The notes beneath the pieces were generated by a model. It made no database searches and was not told the origin of the DNA. It was given only the letters and a program-made list of their open reading frames with translations. A stretch of DNA of 64,000 nucleotides. Origin: an uncultured Verrucomicrobiota bacterium (GTDB lineage Bacteria > Verrucomicrobiota > Verrucomicrobiia > Limisphaerales > UBA9464). The translations under genes and the position numbers were made by a program. Position 1 is the first letter of the stretch. Each line of letters starts with the position of its first letter. The stretch lies in NCBI GenBank assembly GCA_903907995.1, contig CAIVQH010000031.1, positions 124,001-188,000 of the forward strand. Direction: 5' to 3'. Shown in pieces: positions 8,237 to 17,517 of the stretch.

Positions 8237-8595
8237 ATGGAACTCACAGCGGAACGATAACTGCGGATTGCCAACTGCCTGCCGCGCCGCTGGACAATGT
8301 GAGCCTGACCAACCTGCGGTTGCTCAACGCCTGCCGTATGTTCCGGAGAACGGCTGCAAATGGCGCGGGCTGCCGCCGCACTTCGGCAATTGGCACCCCC
8401 ATTTACACGCGGATGAACCGCTGGAGCAAAGCCGGGGTGACGGACCGCGGCTTTGCCCGGCCGCAGCCGGAACAGATCCTGCCGCCGCGCCTCGAACGGG
8501 TGTGCCGGGACAGCACGGTCGTCAAAGTCCATCCCGCCGGCACCGGCGCCCTAAAAAAGCCGGGACGCAAGCCCTCGGCCACCGAACTTGATCGC
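8237..8595 (+). pseudogene. IS5-family transposase remnant
   Basis: Decayed N-terminal half of an IS5/IS427-type DDE transposase. The expected start MELTAE is at 8237, but an in-frame TAA follows at 8258. Recognisable pieces then alternate between two frames: NVSLTNLRLLNA, GCKWRGLPPHFGNWH (8352-8396), IYTRMNRWSKAGVTDRGF, and DSTVVKVHPAGTGALKK, which holds the first catalytic Asp. At least one frameshift lies at about 8397. The C-terminal catalytic half is absent and no terminal inverted repeats were found. The flanks (8147-8236 and 8596-8743) show nothing else except the probable hisD upstream region. Confidence 0.8.
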
Positions 8596-8743
8596 CCGCG
8601 AAAGGTGCTCCACCCAATTCATGCATTGATTTCTGCGCGGCTGCTTTCGAGCCAGCTCCCCGCCTGACCCTCGGTAATTCTGCCGCCCGCAGCTGCGGAC
8701 GGCGTTTTGACTTCGGGGCCGTTCTCCCTACCCTGCGGGGGCA

Positions 8744-10039
<1,296 letters not shown>

Positions 10040-10157
10040 AACCGTGGCGCGTGGCGCGCACGGCAGCCTCGCGGGAAAAGCGCTGCGACAGTTACCGACT
10101 GCGGTTCAATCCTCAGGGTGGACGGACGCCGCTGTTTCTTCCTATCTTGCTGGCTGC

Positions 10158-11054
10158 GTGGCTTCTACTCCGCCTACGGGACCGCTCATTCCGGACCATC
10201 TCGCCCGTCCTTTGGGACGCGGCGCATGCGATCTGGCGGCGTTGATCGGTCAGTTCGTCGCCCCGGCTCCGGACGCCCCAGGGGCCAATCCCAATGTCCG
10301 CCGCAGCCTCGACCACTTCGCGCGGCTGCCCGAGCTGGGCCCACGTCTGCGCCGGCTGCCCGGCTCGCCGTCGGTGCTGATCCAAGGCTACAGCGATCCG
10401 GGAAACGCCGTGGCCTTGACCCAGTTTCTTGCCGGTCATATCGCGGGGCGCCCGCGCCTTCAGGTGGTTGATCTCTACGACCTGCCGGCCGTCTATGGGC
10501 TGCTGGGATTTCCCGCGCCTGAGTTTGAGTACCGGCTGGCCGATGCCAGCCAGCTGCAGGACTGCTACCCGGACGATTCGGTGGATGTGCTGGTGCAGGA
10601 CTTCCTGCTGAACTGCACGCCCTCCGCCCTGCACGCCCCGATCCTGCAGGAAGCCGCCCGCATTCTCTCGGTGCAGGGCGTTGCGCTCATCAGCTTCAGC
10701 GACCAGGCCGGAGTCGGCCCGCGCCCGACCATGGATGCCACCGAGTTTCAGCGGCGCTCCGGAGTTCCCTGGTGTCCCGGCGCGTACAACCTCGCGGACA
10801 TGTTTCCGCCCGGGACATTTCCCGCCTCCACACTGGATGACCTGGCCGGCCAGGTCGTGCTCGATCCCGCGACGGGAACCTCCACGCTGATCACGGGGGT
10901 GGGCCGGTTCGAATTCTTCCGCGACGCCGAAGTGATGCTGCAGCTCTTCCGGGAAGCCGGGCTGGTGAACCTGGCGATGGACCGGAGCGAAGGCGTGGAC
11001 TCGCATGGCCTGAACTGCCGGCGGTATCGTTGCCTGCTGGCGAAATCAGCCTGA
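10158..11054 (+). CDS. SAM-dependent methyltransferase-like protein
   Basis: 298 residues from GTG 10158. An in-frame GTG at 10044 would add 38 residues of poor quality, so the start is uncertain. The central part looks like a class I methyltransferase: LQVVDLYDLPAVYG as the first strand, RLADASQL as the acidic second motif, then PDDSVDVLVQDFLLNCTP and EAARILSVQGVALISF. The glycine-rich motif I is weak, so SAM binding is probable rather than certain. It lies 4 nt upstream of the peptide synthetase and is probably co-transcribed with it. A tailoring role (methylating the peptide product or a precursor) is inferred from position only. Confidence 0.65.
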   Translation: MASTPPTGPLIPDHLARPLGRGACDLAALIGQFVAPAPDAPGANPNVRRSLDHFARLPELGPRLRRLPGSPSVLIQGYSDPGNAVALTQFLAGHIAGRPRLQVVDLYDLPAVYGLLGFPAPEFEYRLADASQLQDCYPDDSVDVLVQDFLLNCTPSALHAPILQEAARILSVQGVALISFSDQAGVGPRPTMDATEFQRRSGVPWCPGAYNLADMFPPGTFPASTLDDLAGQVVLDPATGTSTLITGVGRFEFFRDAEVMLQLFREAGLVNLAMDRSEGVDSHGLNCRRYRCLLAKSA

Positions 11055-11058
11055 ACCG

Positions 11059-14000
11059 GTGCAGGATGAGCCCGACCCCTCCGTGAACCTGCCACACATC
11101 AAGGCTTCTGGAACTTCCGCCGGGCCGGAAGTCCTGCCGCTGCTGCCCATGCAGCAATGGATGTGGCGGTCGCAGATGGTCCACAACCGCGCCGACCTCG
11201 GCCTGATGCAGGTGGTGGTGGCCTTGCGCGAGGCCGTGGACCTGGCCCGGCTGCGCGCGGCGTGGGCGAGTGTGGTCGCCCAGCATCCGATCCTGCGGAC
11301 CCGCCTGGTCTGGGAAAGCGACGTGGACCCGGGACAATTGGTCGAGCCGCAGGTGGAAGTTCCCTGGACGGCGCTTGATTGGCGGGCACTCACGACGGAG
11401 GCGACCGCGGAAGTTCCGGACCAGCGCTGGGAAACGTTGCTTCGGGAAGACCGGCAGCGAGGACTCGATCTGCGTGTCGCCCCGCTGCTGCGCTTCACCT
11501 GCGTGACGTTGGATGAAACGGAAACCCGGCTGCTCTGGACGTTTCATCACATCCTGCTCGATGGCAGCTCAATCCCGCTCGTCCTGGAGGACGCCTTCGC
11601 CGCGTATCAGGCGTTGCGGGAAGGCCGGGCCGTGCCGGCCCCGGAACGCCCCGCGTTCGCGCAGTTCGTCCGCTGGCATCAGGCCTGGTGGGAGGCGCAC
11701 CACGCGCCAGCCGAAGTGTTCTGGCGGAATTATCTCCGGGGCCTGACCGAACCGACCACGCTCACGGTGGAAACCACTGCCGCCGATCCGGCGGACGACG
11801 CCGCGGCGGAACAGGCCGGTTTTGCTCTGTCGCCGGAAGAAACCGCCCGGCTCCAGCAGACGGCGGCAGCGCTGGGGATCACGACGAGCACCTTCCTGCT
11901 GGCGGCGTGGGGACTGCTGCTGCGGCATTACGCAGGGAAGGACGACGTCATTTTCGGCACGGTCGGCGCCGGACGCGGCGACACGTTTCCGGGGGCGGAC
12001 CGCGCCGTCGGCCTTTTCATCACGAACGTCCCCATCCGGTTCAGCTTCGCCGGCACGGCCACCGTGCGCACGGTGCTGCGCGAATTGCGCGCGCTCCACC
12101 TGGCGGTGCGGCAGTTCGAGCACACGCCGTTGCACCTGCGCTCCCGCTGGAGCGAGCTGCCAGCCGGCGCTCCGCTGGTCGGGTCGGTGATCGTCTTTGA
12201 CCGGGATAGCATCGCCGGGCGCATGGCGCAAAAATGCGGCGCTCCCGGACGGACTTTCGAACTGCGGCAACAGCCCGACCAGGGGCTGCTGCTCGCGGTC
12301 ACCGGCGGCGAACGGCTCACCGGCGACGTGGTGTTCGAGGCGGCGCGCTATCCCCGCGAAATCATGCGCCGGCTGGCCGGGCAGCTGGCCCACCTGTTGC
12401 GAGAACTGCCGGTGTCACTGGATCTGCCCCTGCAAGACGTGCCGATCCTGCCGCCGGAGGAGTGGGCGGAGCTGGTGCGCTTCGGGCAGGGACCGGAATC
12501 GTCCGCCGGCTCGGAGCGCCGGTTGCAGGAGTGGTTCGAACTCCAGGCCCGGAAGCGGCCGGAAGCCGTCGCGATCCAGAGGCCAGACACTGCCACCACC
12601 TACGGCCAGCTCGAAACCGCCGCCAACCGGCTGGGACATTATCTCCAGCGGCTGGGTGCGGCCCCGGACCGGATCATTGCCATCATTCTGCCCCGCAGCG
12701 CCGAGCTGGTGACGGCGGCCATCGGCGTGCTCAAGAGCGGTGCCGCCTACCTGCCGCTGGACCCGGAACTGCCGCCCGCCCGGCTCGCCGCCATGGTGGA
12801 AGCCGCGGGTCCGCTGGCGGTCATTACCGGGCCCGGCTGCACGCTTTCCCGCACTGCGGGTTGCGACCGCTGGGTCGATTGCGTGGCCGACCGTGCGGAG
12901 ATCCATGCCTGCCCCGATACCTGCCCTGAGGCATCGACCGCCGGCTCGCATCTGGCCTACGCCATCTTTACCTCCGGCACCACCGGCACGCCGAAACTGG
13001 TCGGCGTCGAACACCGCAACATCTCCAACCTGCTCGCCTATGCCGCGACTGAGCTGTTTGATCCGGCGGACTGGGCCTGGGTTCCTTTCACCGACGCGGT
13101 GTCGGCCGATTCCTGCGTGCACCAGATTTTCCTGACGCTGGGACTGGGCGGACGGCTGGTGCCGCTGCCGGAATTGGGAGCGGTCGCCGCGTCGCCTTTC
13201 CTGCCGCAGTTCACCTGGTTCAGCGCGACGCCGATCTCGTTTCAATGGGTGTTCGACACCTTCGGCCTGCCGCCCTCGGCCCGGGTGCTCGGCGTCGGGG
13301 CGGAAGCCACCCCGCCCGCCCTGCTCGCCCGCCTGCGCGCCCAGCCGGGCATCCGGGAACTGTATAATTTTTACGGCCCCACCGAGGCGACCATCTACTC
13401 CACGATTTCCCGGCTGTTCGAACTGGCGGACCAGGCCGCCGTCATGCCCGGCCCGGCCCGCCACGTGGGCCGGATCATCGGCCGCCCGGTGGCCGGCACC
13501 CGCTGCCATGTGCTCGACGCGCGCGGACAGCCCGCCCCCGTGGGTGTTCCGGGCGAACTGGTGATCGCGGGCATCGGTGTGGCCCGGGGCTACCTGAACG
13601 ACCCCGCGCTCACCCTCGACCGCTTCATCGCGGAACCGGGCAACCCCTCCGGTCGCGCCTATCGCACTGGCGACCTGGCCCGCTGGCATCCCGACGGGCA
13701 GCTGGAGTTTCTGGGGCGGCGCGACTCGCAGATCAAGATCCACGGCGTGCGCGTCGAGCTGGAGGAAATCGAGGCGCACCTGCTCGCCTTTCCGCAGGTC
13801 GCCCAGGCGGTCGTGAATGCGGTGCCTGCCCCGGACGGCGACCGCCGGCTGGTGGCGTATGTCGTCATGCCTCCGGCGGCATTCCAGCCCGGCCAGATCC
13901 GCCGCTTCCTCCGGACACGCCTGGCCAACACGGTGGTGCCAGCAACGTTAGTGCGGCTGGATGCCCTGCCGCTTACGCTCACGGGCAAGATCGACCGCCA

Positions 14001-15162
14001 ACGCCTCCCGCATCCAAGCTTTACTGAGGAAGCGGGCCCGGCGATCGCCGAGACGGAGACGGAGCGCCGATTGGTCGCCATCTGGGCCCAGGTGCTGCGC
14101 CGGTCCGACGTCGGTGTGGAGGATGATTTCTTCGCCGCCGGCGGCGATTCGTTGCAGGCGGCGGTGCTGACGCTCTCCATCGAGGCCGACTTTGCGATCA
14201 GGCTCTCCGCTGCGGACCTCGTTGAATGCCCCAGCCCGCGCGAACTGGCCGCCCGCATTGACCGGAACCGCCAGGCCGCCAACGCGACGTCTTCGCGGCA
14301 CAGTCAGCGACGTGAAGGCAGTTTTGTCCCGCTTCAGGCCGGTCGTACCGGGCGCCCGATCATTGTCCTGCCCGGCGGGGTCGGGGAAAATGAGCGCCCG
14401 GAATTTTACCGGCCCATTTTCCAGGAACTGTCCGACCACCCGGCCTATTGCTTCCTGCCACCGGTGCTCGACCACCGGAACCTTCCCGCCCGCAATCTGC
14501 ACCTCCTGATCGACGAGGCGTTGCGCGCACTCGCCGAGGCCCGGGTGGAGATCGAGCGGGGTGTCATCATCTGGGGGCACTGCGTCGGGGGCATTCTGGG
14601 ATTGGAAATGGCCCGTCGCCTGATGCGGGACGGAACCGCCCCCGTGCCCGTGGCCATCCTGGACCCGCTGCCGCCCACGGGGCGGTTGACCGCCGTTCGT
14701 CGCGCGATGGCTTCCACCCGGCTCGGAGTGCAACTGCGCTACCACCGCAACATGCTGCGTGAGGGCGATTGGTCGGCCCGTGCGACGTATGCCCGGGGCG
14801 TGCTGGCCCGGACCTTCCGGCGCGCCCTGCCCCGGCCGGCGGAACCGGTCGGAGCCGCCCGCTCAGCGAGGATTCCACCGGCCGAGGTGGACCGCCATTT
14901 CCAGGATCTGGTCACCTACCCGCGCACCCTGGCGGCCCATCGCTCCCTGCCGCATGCCGGCCCGTTGCTCCTCACCGCAAACCACAGGGAAGCCACCCCG
15001 CAACTGGAGCGCGCCTGGCGGCAACTGGCACACGGCCCGTTCCGCTTCGATCCGGTGCCGGGCACGCACACCACGGTCGTGGCGACGCAGGCCGCCGCCA
15101 TCGGCCAGAGCCTGCACCGCTGGCTGGCGGAGATCGCTCCGGATAACCAGCGCTTGGCATGA
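11059..15162 (+). CDS. Single-module nonribosomal peptide synthetase, C-A-T-TE with cysteine-type thioesterase
   Basis: 1,367 residues in four domains. The condensation domain (about 25-450) has the active HHxxxDG motif, H163-H164 to D168-G169. The adenylation domain (about 485-985) has FTSGTTGTPK at 637-646, NFYGPTEAT, YRTGDL, GRRDSQIKIHG and the catalytic lysine K977 in LTGKIDR. The carrier domain has its phosphopantetheine serine, S1031, in GGDSLQ. The C-terminal alpha/beta-hydrolase thioesterase (about 1090-1360) has nucleophile motif GHCVGG with C1175 where serine is usual, probable D1202 and H1337. The region matching the start of the specificity pocket reads DSCVH and retains the Asp that binds an alpha-amino group; the substrate is not predictable. 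The GTG start is weakly supported (GTG 11092 is an alternative). It probably makes a small peptide, amide or strained-ring product. Confidence 0.92.
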   Translation: MQDEPDPSVNLPHIKASGTSAGPEVLPLLPMQQWMWRSQMVHNRADLGLMQVVVALREAVDLARLRAAWASVVAQHPILRTRLVWESDVDPGQLVEPQVEVPWTALDWRALTTEATAEVPDQRWETLLREDRQRGLDLRVAPLLRFTCVTLDETETRLLWTFHHILLDGSSIPLVLEDAFAAYQALREGRAVPAPERPAFAQFVRWHQAWWEAHHAPAEVFWRNYLRGLTEPTTLTVETTAADPADDAAAEQAGFALSPEETARLQQTAAALGITTSTFLLAAWGLLLRHYAGKDDVIFGTVGAGRGDTFPGADRAVGLFITNVPIRFSFAGTATVRTVLRELRALHLAVRQFEHTPLHLRSRWSELPAGAPLVGSVIVFDRDSIAGRMAQKCGAPGRTFELRQQPDQGLLLAVTGGERLTGDVVFEAARYPREIMRRLAGQLAHLLRELPVSLDLPLQDVPILPPEEWAELVRFGQGPESSAGSERRLQEWFELQARKRPEAVAIQRPDTATTYGQLETAANRLGHYLQRLGAAPDRIIAIILPRSAELVTAAIGVLKSGAAYLPLDPELPPARLAAMVEAAGPLAVITGPGCTLSRTAGCDRWVDCVADRAEIHACPDTCPEASTAGSHLAYAIFTSGTTGTPKLVGVEHRNISNLLAYAATELFDPADWAWVPFTDAVSADSCVHQIFLTLGLGGRLVPLPELGAVAASPFLPQFTWFSATPISFQWVFDTFGLPPSARVLGVGAEATPPALLARLRAQPGIRELYNFYGPTEATIYSTISRLFELADQAAVMPGPARHVGRIIGRPVAGTRCHVLDARGQPAPVGVPGELVIAGIGVARGYLNDPALTLDRFIAEPGNPSGRAYRTGDLARWHPDGQLEFLGRRDSQIKIHGVRVELEEIEAHLLAFPQVAQAVVNAVPAPDGDRRLVAYVVMPPAAFQPGQIRRFLRTRLANTVVPATLVRLDALPLTLTGKIDRQRLPHPSFTEEAGPAIAETETERRLVAIWAQVLRRSDVGVEDDFFAAGGDSLQAAVLTLSIEADFAIRLSAADLVECPSPRELAARIDRNRQAANATSSRHSQRREGSFVPLQAGRTGRPIIVLPGGVGENERPEFYRPIFQELSDHPAYCFLPPVLDHRNLPARNLHLLIDEALRALAEARVEIERGVIIWGHCVGGILGLEMARRLMRDGTAPVPVAILDPLPPTGRLTAVRRAMASTRLGVQLRYHRNMLREGDWSARATYARGVLARTFRRALPRPAEPVGAARSARIPPAEVDRHFQDLVTYPRTLAAHRSLPHAGPLLLTANHREATPQLERAWRQLAHGPFRFDPVPGTHTTVVATQAAAIGQSLHRWLAEIAPDNQRLA

Positions 15163-15194
15163 GCGCCCGGGTGGCCGCCAGGCCCATCGGGACA

Positions 15195-15273
15195 GCATCC
15201 TAATCGTAATCTTAATCGATCTCGCCTTGCCTGCCTTGGATTACGATCACGATGAAGATTAGGATTAAGATGC
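15195..15273. repeat. Imperfect inverted repeat between NRPS and hisC
   Basis: Two 24-nt arms, 15195-15218 and 15250-15273, are inverted copies differing at a few positions. Both are built from the AT-rich word CTAATCNTAATCTT, which contrasts with the GC-rich surroundings. They could fold as a long hairpin in the 166-bp gap. It may attenuate transcription from the NRPS into hisC, or simply be a dispersed palindromic element. Confidence 0.6.
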
Positions 15274-15328
15274 GGGCCATGCCGCCGGCTCGACTTCAGC
15301 CACGCGGGCCTGCGAGACTGCGGCCCAC

Positions 15329-16456
15329 ATGGCCGCACCAAAGCCGAAGCAGTTGATCCGCCCGCTCGTCCACTCGTTGCACGCCTACGTGCCCGGCGAG
15401 CAGCCGAAGATTCGCGGGCTCATCAAGCTCAACACGAACGAGAATCCCTATCCGCCCTCGCCCAAGGTGCTCGCGGCGACCAAGGCGGCGGTGGACGGCC
15501 GGCTGCGGCTCTACCCCAATCCCACCGCACAGGCGTTGCGTGAGCGGCTCGCACGGCTGCACGGCTGCGGTCCGGAAAACATCATCATCGGCAACGGCTC
15601 CGACGAACTGCTGGCGCTCGCGGTGCGGACCTTCACCGAGCCTGCTACGCCCGCCAGCGCAACCACAGGGCGGGCTTCCGGCTCCACGGTGCAGTACTTC
15701 CATCCCAGCTATTCGCTCTATCCGGTGCTCGCCGAGATCCACGGCGCCACCACCCACGCGGTGCCGTTGCGGACCGATTTCACGCTGCCCTCGGTGCCCG
15801 AGCTGAAGCGCGGGAAGCAGTGGGACTTCCAGGCCGCCCTCTCATTGGTCACCACGCCCAATGCCCCGAGCGGTCGCGGCTTTGCCACCGCCGAACTGGA
15901 CACCCTTTGCGCCGCCATGCGCGGCGTGGTTGTGCTCGACGAGGCGTACGTGGACTTCGCCGCCGAAAACGCACTCGCCCTCGCGCTGAAGCATCCCCAC
16001 GTGCTCATCTCACGGACCTTTTCCAAGGCCTACTCGCTGTGCTTCCAGCGCGTGGGCTATTTTGTGGGCCATCCCGAGCTGATCGCCGCGCTCGACAAGG
16101 TGCGCGACAGCTACAACGTGAACGGCCTCGGCCAGGTCGCGGCCCTCGCGACGCTGGGCGATCTGCCGTATTATCGCCGGAATTTCCGCCGCATCATCGC
16201 CACGCGCGAACGCCTCCGCCGGGAGCTGACGGGGCTCGGCTTCGAGGTGCTGCCGAGCCAGACGAACTTCCTGCTCACCAGGCCGCCCGGGCCGCCCGCC
16301 AAGGAATGGCTGCAACGGCTGCGCGACCGGAAGATTCTCGTGCGCTGGTTCAGCGCGCCCGAGGTGAACGCGTATCTCCGCATCACCATCGGCAGTGACG
16401 CCGAGGCCGATGCGCTGCTAAAAGCGGTGTCGGCGATCCTGCATCGCCGGCGCTGA
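15329..16456 (+). CDS. hisC: Histidinol-phosphate aminotransferase
   Basis: 375 residues, a normal length for this fold-type I PLP enzyme, which converts imidazole-acetol phosphate and glutamate to histidinol phosphate. Visible features are LNTNENPYPPSP near the N-terminus, GNGSDELL, VVLDEAYVDFA with the PLP-ring Asp, and the Schiff-base lysine K233 in SRTFSKAYSLC. The C-terminal arginine region LRITIGSDAEAD is present. A short Ala/Thr/Gly-rich insertion follows residue 107. It lies 166 bp downstream of the peptide synthetase. Besides histidine synthesis, it could also supply an amino-acid-derived building block, but nothing in the sequence requires that. Confidence 0.95.
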   Translation: MAAPKPKQLIRPLVHSLHAYVPGEQPKIRGLIKLNTNENPYPPSPKVLAATKAAVDGRLRLYPNPTAQALRERLARLHGCGPENIIIGNGSDELLALAVRTFTEPATPASATTGRASGSTVQYFHPSYSLYPVLAEIHGATTHAVPLRTDFTLPSVPELKRGKQWDFQAALSLVTTPNAPSGRGFATAELDTLCAAMRGVVVLDEAYVDFAAENALALALKHPHVLISRTFSKAYSLCFQRVGYFVGHPELIAALDKVRDSYNVNGLGQVAALATLGDLPYYRRNFRRIIATRERLRRELTGLGFEVLPSQTNFLLTRPPGPPAKEWLQRLRDRKILVRWFSAPEVNAYLRITIGSDAEADALLKAVSAILHRRR

Positions 16457-16599
16457 CCTGACCGATGTGATCGGCTTCATGCTTCTGTTTCCGTGTACCT
16501 TGCCCATCACGATCCGCCGCGGATGACTCAGCGCGCCCGGCATCCCATCGCAGGCGGAGCACAGCTTGCCGCCCGGCCCGCCATCGCGTTCACTCGGCA

Positions 16600-17517
16600 A
16601 TGCCTTTGAGCCGCTCCACCAACCGGAGTTGTCAGTCGCTGCCGAAGCGGTGGCGGCTACTGGGCTTGGGCATCGCGGCTGTGCTGCTGGTGGTGGACTG
16701 GTTTTTGCCGCCCCTGCCCACGCCGCGCTTTTTGGAACGCTGGCCCGACGCCGGCACCGGCTTCACTCCGTGGAAACCGCTGCTCGCGGGGGTTGACCAT
16801 GCCCGCGCCAACTTCAGCTCGCCCCGGCCGATGAAGTGCCACGTCGTGCGGATCGACCTGGCCGACACCAATGTCAGCCTCCTTGCGCGACCGCCCGCCC
16901 CCGCCGCACCGTTCGAGACCGACGGCGAATACGTGAGCTCCTTCGTCCGCTCGCAGGCAGTACAGGTGGCGATCAACACCACGCCCTTTGCCCCGGACCG
17001 CGTGGTGCCCGGCCGGCCGGTGGATTTGCAGGGACTCGCGGTGTCACAGGGACAGCGGTTTTCCGAGGCCGCCGGCAACTTGGATTCGCTGGTGATCACC
17101 CGTGACAACCAGGCCCGCCTCGTTCCGGCTGGCGGCAAAACCGCCGATGCCTGGAACGGTGCCGGCGGCTTTCTGATCACCCTGCGTCACGGGCAGAATG
17201 TTGCCGAGAAGCTGCAGCCCGAGCCGGCCACCGTCGTCGGCCTCTCCGCCGACGGGCGCCGGATGTTCTGGCTCGTGGTGGATGGCCGGCAACCCGGCTA
17301 CAGCGAAGGCGCCACACCGGCCGAAACGGCGGAAATGCTCCTGAGTCTGGGAGCGACCGAGGCGTTGAACATGGATGGCGGCGGCTCGAGCACGCTGGCC
17401 TGCGCTGGCGGTTGGAAAGGCGTGCGCGTGCTGAACCGGCCCTACCACTGGGTGTGGAGCGGACTGGAGCGGCCGGTCGGTGCCGCGCTCGGAGTGCGTT
17501 CCCAACCGCCCCGTTAG
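16600..17517 (+). CDS. Phosphodiester glycosidase family protein (NAGPA/DUF2233-like)
   Basis: 305 residues. An N-terminal membrane anchor or signal segment (LLGLGIAAVLLVVDWFLPPL, 21-40) follows a basic stretch. The C-terminal two thirds match the NAGPA domain, whose human founder uncovers mannose 6-phosphate and whose bacterial members act on exported phosphoglycosides. Diagnostic parts are VQVAINTTPFAP, GAGGFLITLRHG and the loop LNMDGGGSST near residue 265. It is probably extracytoplasmic. A link with envelope glycan turnover is inferred. Confidence 0.8.
   Translation: MPLSRSTNRSCQSLPKRWRLLGLGIAAVLLVVDWFLPPLPTPRFLERWPDAGTGFTPWKPLLAGVDHARANFSSPRPMKCHVVRIDLADTNVSLLARPPAPAAPFETDGEYVSSFVRSQAVQVAINTTPFAPDRVVPGRPVDLQGLAVSQGQRFSEAAGNLDSLVITRDNQARLVPAGGKTADAWNGAGGFLITLRHGQNVAEKLQPEPATVVGLSADGRRMFWLVVDGRQPGYSEGATPAETAEMLLSLGATEALNMDGGGSSTLACAGGWKGVRVLNRPYHWVWSGLERPVGAALGVRSQPPR

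Follow-up and report, generated by a model that had tools for sequence, protein, structure and literature searches.

A cysteine-nucleophile thioesterase in a single-module NRPS encoded between hisD and hisC in an uncultured Verrucomicrobiota bacterium

The locus between hisD and hisC

The window, i.e. the whole 64,000-nucleotide stretch of DNA that was analysed, carries a methyltransferase-like gene and a gene for a single-module NRPS, which together form a two-gene cassette (10044-15162) inside the histidine operon. The same arrangement is found around L021, the locus of the orthologous NRPS in a second genome. The features of the region are as follows.

8744..10039, + strand: hisD, histidinol dehydrogenase, the left border of the cassette (Pfam and NCBIfam)
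10044..11054, + strand: methyltransferase-like gene (Methyltransf_31 and Methyltransf_11, below cut-offs)
11059..15162, + strand: single-module NRPS, C-A-PCP-TE, 1367 aa from a GTG at 11059 (ORF and Pfam)
11131..12474, + strand: condensation (C) domain, residues 25-472 (Pfam PF00668, 240.5 bits; HHILLDG motif at H164 intact)
12535..13989, + strand: adenylation (A) domain, residues 493-977 (Pfam PF00501 and PF13193)
14065..14259, + strand: peptidyl carrier (PCP) domain, residues 1003-1067 (Pfam PF00550)
14356..15123, + strand: thioesterase (TE) domain, residues 1100-1355 (Pfam PF00975; hhalign against Ser-type TEs, 99.3%)
14581..14583, + strand: nucleophile C1175 in GHCVGG (sequence and profile alignment)
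14662..14664, + strand: D1202, the position-I acid at Cys+27 (sequence and alignments)
15067..15069, + strand: H1337, the catalytic His in PGTHTT (sequence and alignments)
15329..16456, + strand: hisC, histidinol-phosphate transaminase, the right border of the cassette (NCBIfam hisC, over cut-off)

Residue numbers are counted from the GTG at 11059; an in-frame GTG at 11083, suggested by the orthologue, is perhaps the true start, and would lower them all by 8. The initial annotation of this DNA described a single-module enzyme with a cysteine nucleophile, and this is borne out by the C-A-PCP-TE order of the Pfam matches and by the triad columns considered below. Within the A domain, the AMP-binding match spans residues 493-846 and the AMP-binding_C match residues 903-977, with D684 and K977 intact, as is the phosphopantetheine Ser of the PCP (S1031 in GGDSLQ). 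The TE, which is C-terminal to the PCP, only weakly exceeds the PF00975 family cut-off (30.8 bits against 26.4), and hence is a divergent member of that family. As it is fused to a PCP, scores above this cut-off and has its triad in homologous columns, it can be classed as an embedded type I NRPS TE.

A scan of genome contigs identified just one relative, the orthologue L021 (6836-10900), whose NRPS is 85% identical to that of the window; a search of the PLSDB plasmids with the TE gave no match at E 1e-5. L021 aside, the nearest relatives of the C-A region within the order are 37-38% identical. The order also contains five open frames of 1100-1163 aa (L131, L132, L133, L134 and L138) that are 36-37% identical to the window over C-A. 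Their A codes are near-identical (DAWVLGHVVK or DAWLLGHVVK), and they constitute a recurrent single-module family.

The methyltransferase-like gene encodes up to 336 aa and ends 4 bp before the NRPS ORF. It is 88% identical in L021, where the frame opens only past the match to residue 4 of the window's protein, such that the start codon is uncertain. The protein is present in two of 293 genomes of the order, the window's own included, and its AlphaFold2 model, from a two-row alignment, has a mean pLDDT of 35.3. In all five of the other congeners in which hisD was found (G001, G002, G005, G006 and G007), the cassette is absent from between hisD and hisC, and the matches to these two genes are 20-36 bases apart; hisD was not found in G004. 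This spacing implies either an insertion in the ancestor of the two species or a loss elsewhere. The presence of the two-gene cassette at the hisD/hisC site is a new and specific finding. The G+C content of the cassette genes is 0.67-0.69, against 0.67-0.70 in the flanks, while at third positions it is 0.77 in the methyltransferase-like gene and 0.83 in the NRPS, against 0.90 and 0.86 in the flanks. An inverted repeat of AATC-rich units (15197-15265) lies between the NRPS and hisC, and was considered as a possible mark of insertion; its 17-base core has 13 copies in the genome at no more than one mismatch, and none in the reversed control. Scans of 8500-16600 for promoter- and terminator-like sequences found no more than in shuffled sequence.

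The catalytic triad and characterised cysteine thioesterases

The window TE and its orthologue were aligned, profile against profile, with 15 Ser-type embedded TEs. At a probability of 99.3%, the alignment places C1175 opposite the catalytic Ser, D1202 opposite the Asp and H1337, at Cys+162, opposite the His. A phmmer search aligned the regions around the nucleophile and the His weakly to the TE structures of Vlm2 and PikA4, with E-values of 2e-5 to 4e-5 for the sequence and 0.006 to 1.2 for single stretches. The nucleophile elbow is assigned by homology, because the AlphaFold2 model of the TE, built from a two-row alignment of the window and L021, has a mean pLDDT of 35.0 and is unusable. The initial annotation had the ORF, the domain order and the residue numbers correct in naming C1175 of GHCVGG as the nucleophile alongside D1202 and H1337. 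In a 22-row alignment of Cys-type TEs, every row has the Cys, and some rows differ in the Asp and His columns.

All three triad residues are retained in L021, the sole close orthologue found, in which the TE is 81-82% identical, and the Asp and His codons differ between the two genomes by silent changes. The TE has a dN/dS ratio of 0.24 and the NRPS as a whole one of 0.23, against 0.054 for hisD. The conservation of the triad through silent changes, at a dN/dS of 0.23-0.24, reflects neither chance nor decay, and the gene is evolving under purifying selection. It is thus extremely unlikely that the TE is a vestige that has lost its release catalysis, as might be suspected from its weak Pfam score and the long branch on which it lies, given that every triad residue is kept and the dN/dS of the domain is 0.24. 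An artefact or frameshift is separately ruled out by the ORF being open in both genomes with a dN/dS of 0.23, and a random substitution to Cys in one genome by its retention in L021.

Cys-type TEs are a known family, of which ObiF, SulM, BulbE and AB3403 have described chemistry or structure. The ObiF1 TE (obafluorin, PDB 6n8e) resembles that of the window, going by its published description, in its Cys nucleophile and C-A-PCP-TE context. Its triad is given as Cys1146, Asp1254 and His1284, and Gly1173 occupies the place of the Asp of EntF-like TEs (PMC6668435). The SulM TE (sulfazecin), also with a Cys nucleophile, is described as having Cys2818, Asp2926 and His2956, and the catalytic Asp of both enzymes is termed position II (PMC11298585); from these published residue numbers, it lies at Cys+108 in each. 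By contrast, the window TE has its Asp at position I (Cys+27), which is Gly in ObiF, and an Ala at His-30, the position-II spacing, which is Asp in ObiF and SulM. As reported, moving the Asp of ObiF to position I (G1173D/D1254A) left the enzyme less active than D1254A alone (PMC6668435). The Gln-Cys-Asn motif of SulM is His-Cys-Val in the window, and SulM is further described as having a positively charged pocket and as the third module of a longer line (PMC11298585). ObiF is described with an A domain for a beta-hydroxy substrate (PMC6668435) and with a fused MbtH-like domain, which the window NRPS does not have. The link to ObiF drawn in the initial annotation is therefore contradicted by the position of D1202; the Ala at the position-II spacing and the lack of both the QCN motif and the MbtH-like domain also speak against it. 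The nearest acid after the position-II spacing, E1311, is four residues further on and is kept in L021; it may play a part, although with D1202 in place it is not needed.

The ten specificity columns of the window A domain read DSHAGGFIYK, and are identical in L021/L126. Across other NRPSs of the order, these columns read DFWQIGMVHK, DAFLLGGTFK and DVQLIAHVVK among others, presumably Thr-, Val- and Pro-like codes respectively, and the familiarity of these indicates that the columns have been read correctly. To our knowledge, DSHAGGFIYK corresponds to no established code, be it for Ser, Thr or another beta-hydroxy residue, or for Dap, which weakens the case for ring closure through a beta-hydroxyl. 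A search of the genome for MbtH also gave no match. Release of a strained ring in the manner of ObiF and SulM, in which the Cys thioester would be attacked by the substrate's own beta-hydroxyl or modified beta-amine to form a beta-lactone or beta-lactam, consequently seems very improbable: the Cys nucleophile and C-A-PCP-TE module of the published ObiF, and a conserved acid four residues past the position-II spacing, are consistent with it, but the Asp at position I, the Ala at the position-II spacing, the want of Gly at Cys+27, the missing motif and MbtH partner and an A code not known for Ser, Thr or Dap all oppose it. ObiF-like chemistry was rejected on the position of the Asp.

A Cys nucleophile with a position-I Asp is described in AB3403 (ABBFA_003403, PDB 4zxh/4zxi), a termination module of Acinetobacter baumannii, which PMC11298585 presents as the only other Cys-TE among structurally characterised TEs. 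It has the same C-A-PCP-TE organisation and Cys as the window, with a GGWCFGG motif rather than WGHCVGG, and its pathway is called uncharacterised (PMC11298585, PMC8150014); counted in the alignment with the Cys-type profile, its Asp is at Cys+27, as in the window. The best PDB match of a Cys-type profile including the window TE was AB3403 (E 2.2e-47), whereas a search with the window TE alone did not retrieve it at E up to 1, implying that the tie runs through the family profile.

A reaction is described for BulbE-TE (bulbiferamide, Microbulbifer), with a triad of Cys961/Asp988/His1097 in which the catalytic Asp is after beta-6; it acylates an indole nitrogen, macrocyclising a peptide, and in its Cys-to-Ser mutant the macrocycle is reported to be undetectable and the hydrolysis product increased (PMC11536411). 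Comparing published residue numbers, the order Cys/Asp(+27)/His is common to BulbE-TE and the window, while the Cys-to-His spacing is +136 in the former. By analogy, the Cys thioester in the window TE might be captured by an amine, giving an amide, lactam, diketopiperazine or N-acyl product. The shared triad and the behaviour of the Ser mutant speak for this reading, which has a fair if less than even chance; against it must be set the difference in Cys-to-His spacing and the absence from the cassette of anything naming an amine or a cyclisable side chain. The initial annotation suggested that the enzyme releases a strained ring or transfers the acyl chain to an amine; the first option is not supported, given the position of the Asp, while the second stands as a possibility through the published likeness to BulbE-TE.

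Cysteine and serine nucleophiles in Verrucomicrobiota

The nucleophiles of embedded TEs were compared across the phylum using loci from 58 genomes (the window's own included) and from PF00975 matches in 387 genomes of the phylum, plus further stretches. In total 103 TE loci were collected (L004-L021 and L032-L116, including L021), of which 82 were kept; adding the window TE, read from L001, gave 83 rows, among which L064 and L065 are identical. The 21 loci dropped were two duplicates, L004 (of the gene in L021) and L051 (of that in L015); L059, truncated at the end of its contig; the free-standing type II-like TEs L032, L034-L038 and L041; L033 and L108, which share one embedded Ser-type TE next to a free-standing one and were removed along with the latter; and the partial or Gly-nucleophile matches L085, L089, L095, L101, L103, L104, L106, L111 and L116.

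In this sample, which was drawn from the stronger matches listed in one phylum and is not a census, Cys is the nucleophile in 43 of 83 embedded TEs and Ser in 40; without the window and L021, Cys accounts for 41 of 81. The two sources give similar proportions, with eight Cys and eight Ser rows from the 58-genome set and 33 Cys and 32 Ser rows from the 387-genome set, in addition to the window and L021. The sampling of the 387 genomes covered listed matches, with only a minority of those in frames shorter than 600 aa and without the weakest embedded ones. The nucleophiles of the dropped loci are predominantly Ser (16, against three Cys, in L004, L059 and L116, and two Gly, in L101 and L104), so their inclusion would shift the ratio towards Ser. 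The premise of the initial annotation that Cys-type TEs are confined to a few pathways consequently fails in this phylum, where Cys is common. A literature search, with most subscription papers outside its scope, returned no title on the frequency of Cys-TEs in Verrucomicrobia, which does not prove that there is none.

The 43 Cys rows have Asp (25), Glu (12), Asn (4) or Gly (2) at position I, i.e. an acid in 37, and His (37) or Pro (6) in the His column, with an acid at position I and His together in 31. Among the 40 Ser rows, position I is Asp in 37 and the His is present throughout. The 41 Cys-type rows other than the window and L021 (e.g. L010, L011, L073 and L107) have their Cys in the same column as the window TE, with Asp or Glu at position I in 35. 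L021 apart, 20 other Cys-type rows were aligned with the window TE, at identities of only 13-24%, and the A codes read beside some of the Cys-type TEs differ from that of the window.

Several of these TEs depart from the usual pattern. Those at L102 and L110 (G304:C207) are neighbouring Cys-type TEs with Gly at position I, as in ObiF; in the 22-row alignment, no Asp is evident at position II of L102. A supported group of Cys-type TEs (L010, L042, L017, L009, L066 and L097) has Pro in the usual His column, and may use another His or be non-canonical. In L101 (GYGFGG) and L104 (GFGFGA), both partial matches, embedded TE-like domains have Gly in the nucleophile column, which suggests that there is no covalent catalysis in these.

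Mapping the Cys/Ser label onto a tree of the 83 TEs requires five changes, against 28 on average in shuffles, indicating that the nucleophile is inherited in blocks. The stem of the window/L021 pair on this tree is 2.05 long. The tree, whose bootstrap had not converged, does not place this pair in any Cys block or elsewhere; its join with L019 was flagged by the program as a possible long-branch artefact, and the letter composition of the window TE as unlike the rest of the alignment. These data bear on a substantial possibility, if short of an even chance, that the Cys is a habit of lineage among the embedded TEs of the phylum, in which case the window TE would carry out plain hydrolysis and C1175S would be about as good an enzyme. 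The near-equal split of 43 Cys and 40 Ser, inherited in blocks, is what commends this explanation; however, such blocks could equally track the type of product, the window branch belongs to none of them, and replacing Cys with Ser is reported to have altered the outcome in both ObiF and BulbE (PMC6668435, PMC11536411). The same frequency counts against amine capture, in that if 43 of 83 TEs have Cys, then Cys alone would point to demanding chemistry only if that chemistry were just as widespread.

Possible partners and a model for product release

Few potential partners for the NRPS can be found in the genome. Matches to the condensation family occur only in this NRPS and at C60, and there are five matches to carrier domains: besides this PCP, C60 has two, and the others are in frames of 109 and 125 aa, hence there is no second carrier within the window. 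A Pfam scan of 20 window ORFs (ten near the NRPS and ten large ones elsewhere) found no other NRPS or PKS part. The other NRPS of the genome (G000:C60:20845-26361; L015, L022 and L024) has a pair of adjacent matches to the condensation family, two to carriers and an in-frame TGA near the start of its Ser-type TE. The TGA could mean that the TE is a gene of its own, that the gene has decayed or that the sequence contains an error. The single phosphopantetheinyl transferase match in the genome (G000:C23:130439-130714; L124) lies in a 148-aa frame, the size of AcpS. No second, Sfp-type match was found in this 95.67% complete genome, so the priming of the PCP is not assured.

The explanation that best accounts for these observations, and probably the correct one, is that the domain is the off-loading TE of a one-module NRPS, with a Cys nucleophile in an otherwise canonical EntF/AB3403-like position-I triad. 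The C, A and PCP motifs are intact, the triad columns are shared with Ser-type TEs and the Asp is at Cys+27, whereas the pLDDT of 35 of the TE model and the lack of a donor gene beside the NRPS count against it. As the TE is 13-24% identical to other Cys rows and sits on a long, unplaced branch, analogy is a weak guide to its function. For such an off-loading TE we infer a sequence of steps in which the A domain would load one amino acid onto the PCP and the C domain would join it to an acyl or aminoacyl donor encoded outside the cassette. Given that the other carriers are only at C60 and in two small free-standing frames, acyl-ACP is one candidate for this donor. The product would then move from the PCP to C1175 by transthioesterification, as predicted from the family, and H1337, held by D1202, would activate water or an amine to release it. 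Hydrolysis and amine capture are about equally likely as the outcome, and the methyltransferase-like protein encoded beside the NRPS probably serves to modify the substrate or the product.

An unlikely but further-reaching proposal is that the cassette represents a minimal two-gene pathway within the histidine operon, making a small amide, lactam or methylated acyl-amino acid through capture of the Cys thioester by an amine. Were this true, the triad of Cys and position-I Asp would gain a second demonstrated reaction, and it would hint that the many Cys-type TEs of Verrucomicrobiota form amides.

The frequency of Cys in the phylum is a more useful result than the special chemistry proposed for this enzyme. 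A Cys in a TE is frequently taken as a sign of difficult chemistry, the formation of strained rings for example. With around half of the sampled embedded TEs having Cys, mostly with the acid in the ordinary position, Cys alone is a poor guide to beta-lactones, and the position of the Asp and the A code serve better for that purpose. As the module is small and tractable, identifying its reaction would be a test of what the common Cys/position-I arrangement does.
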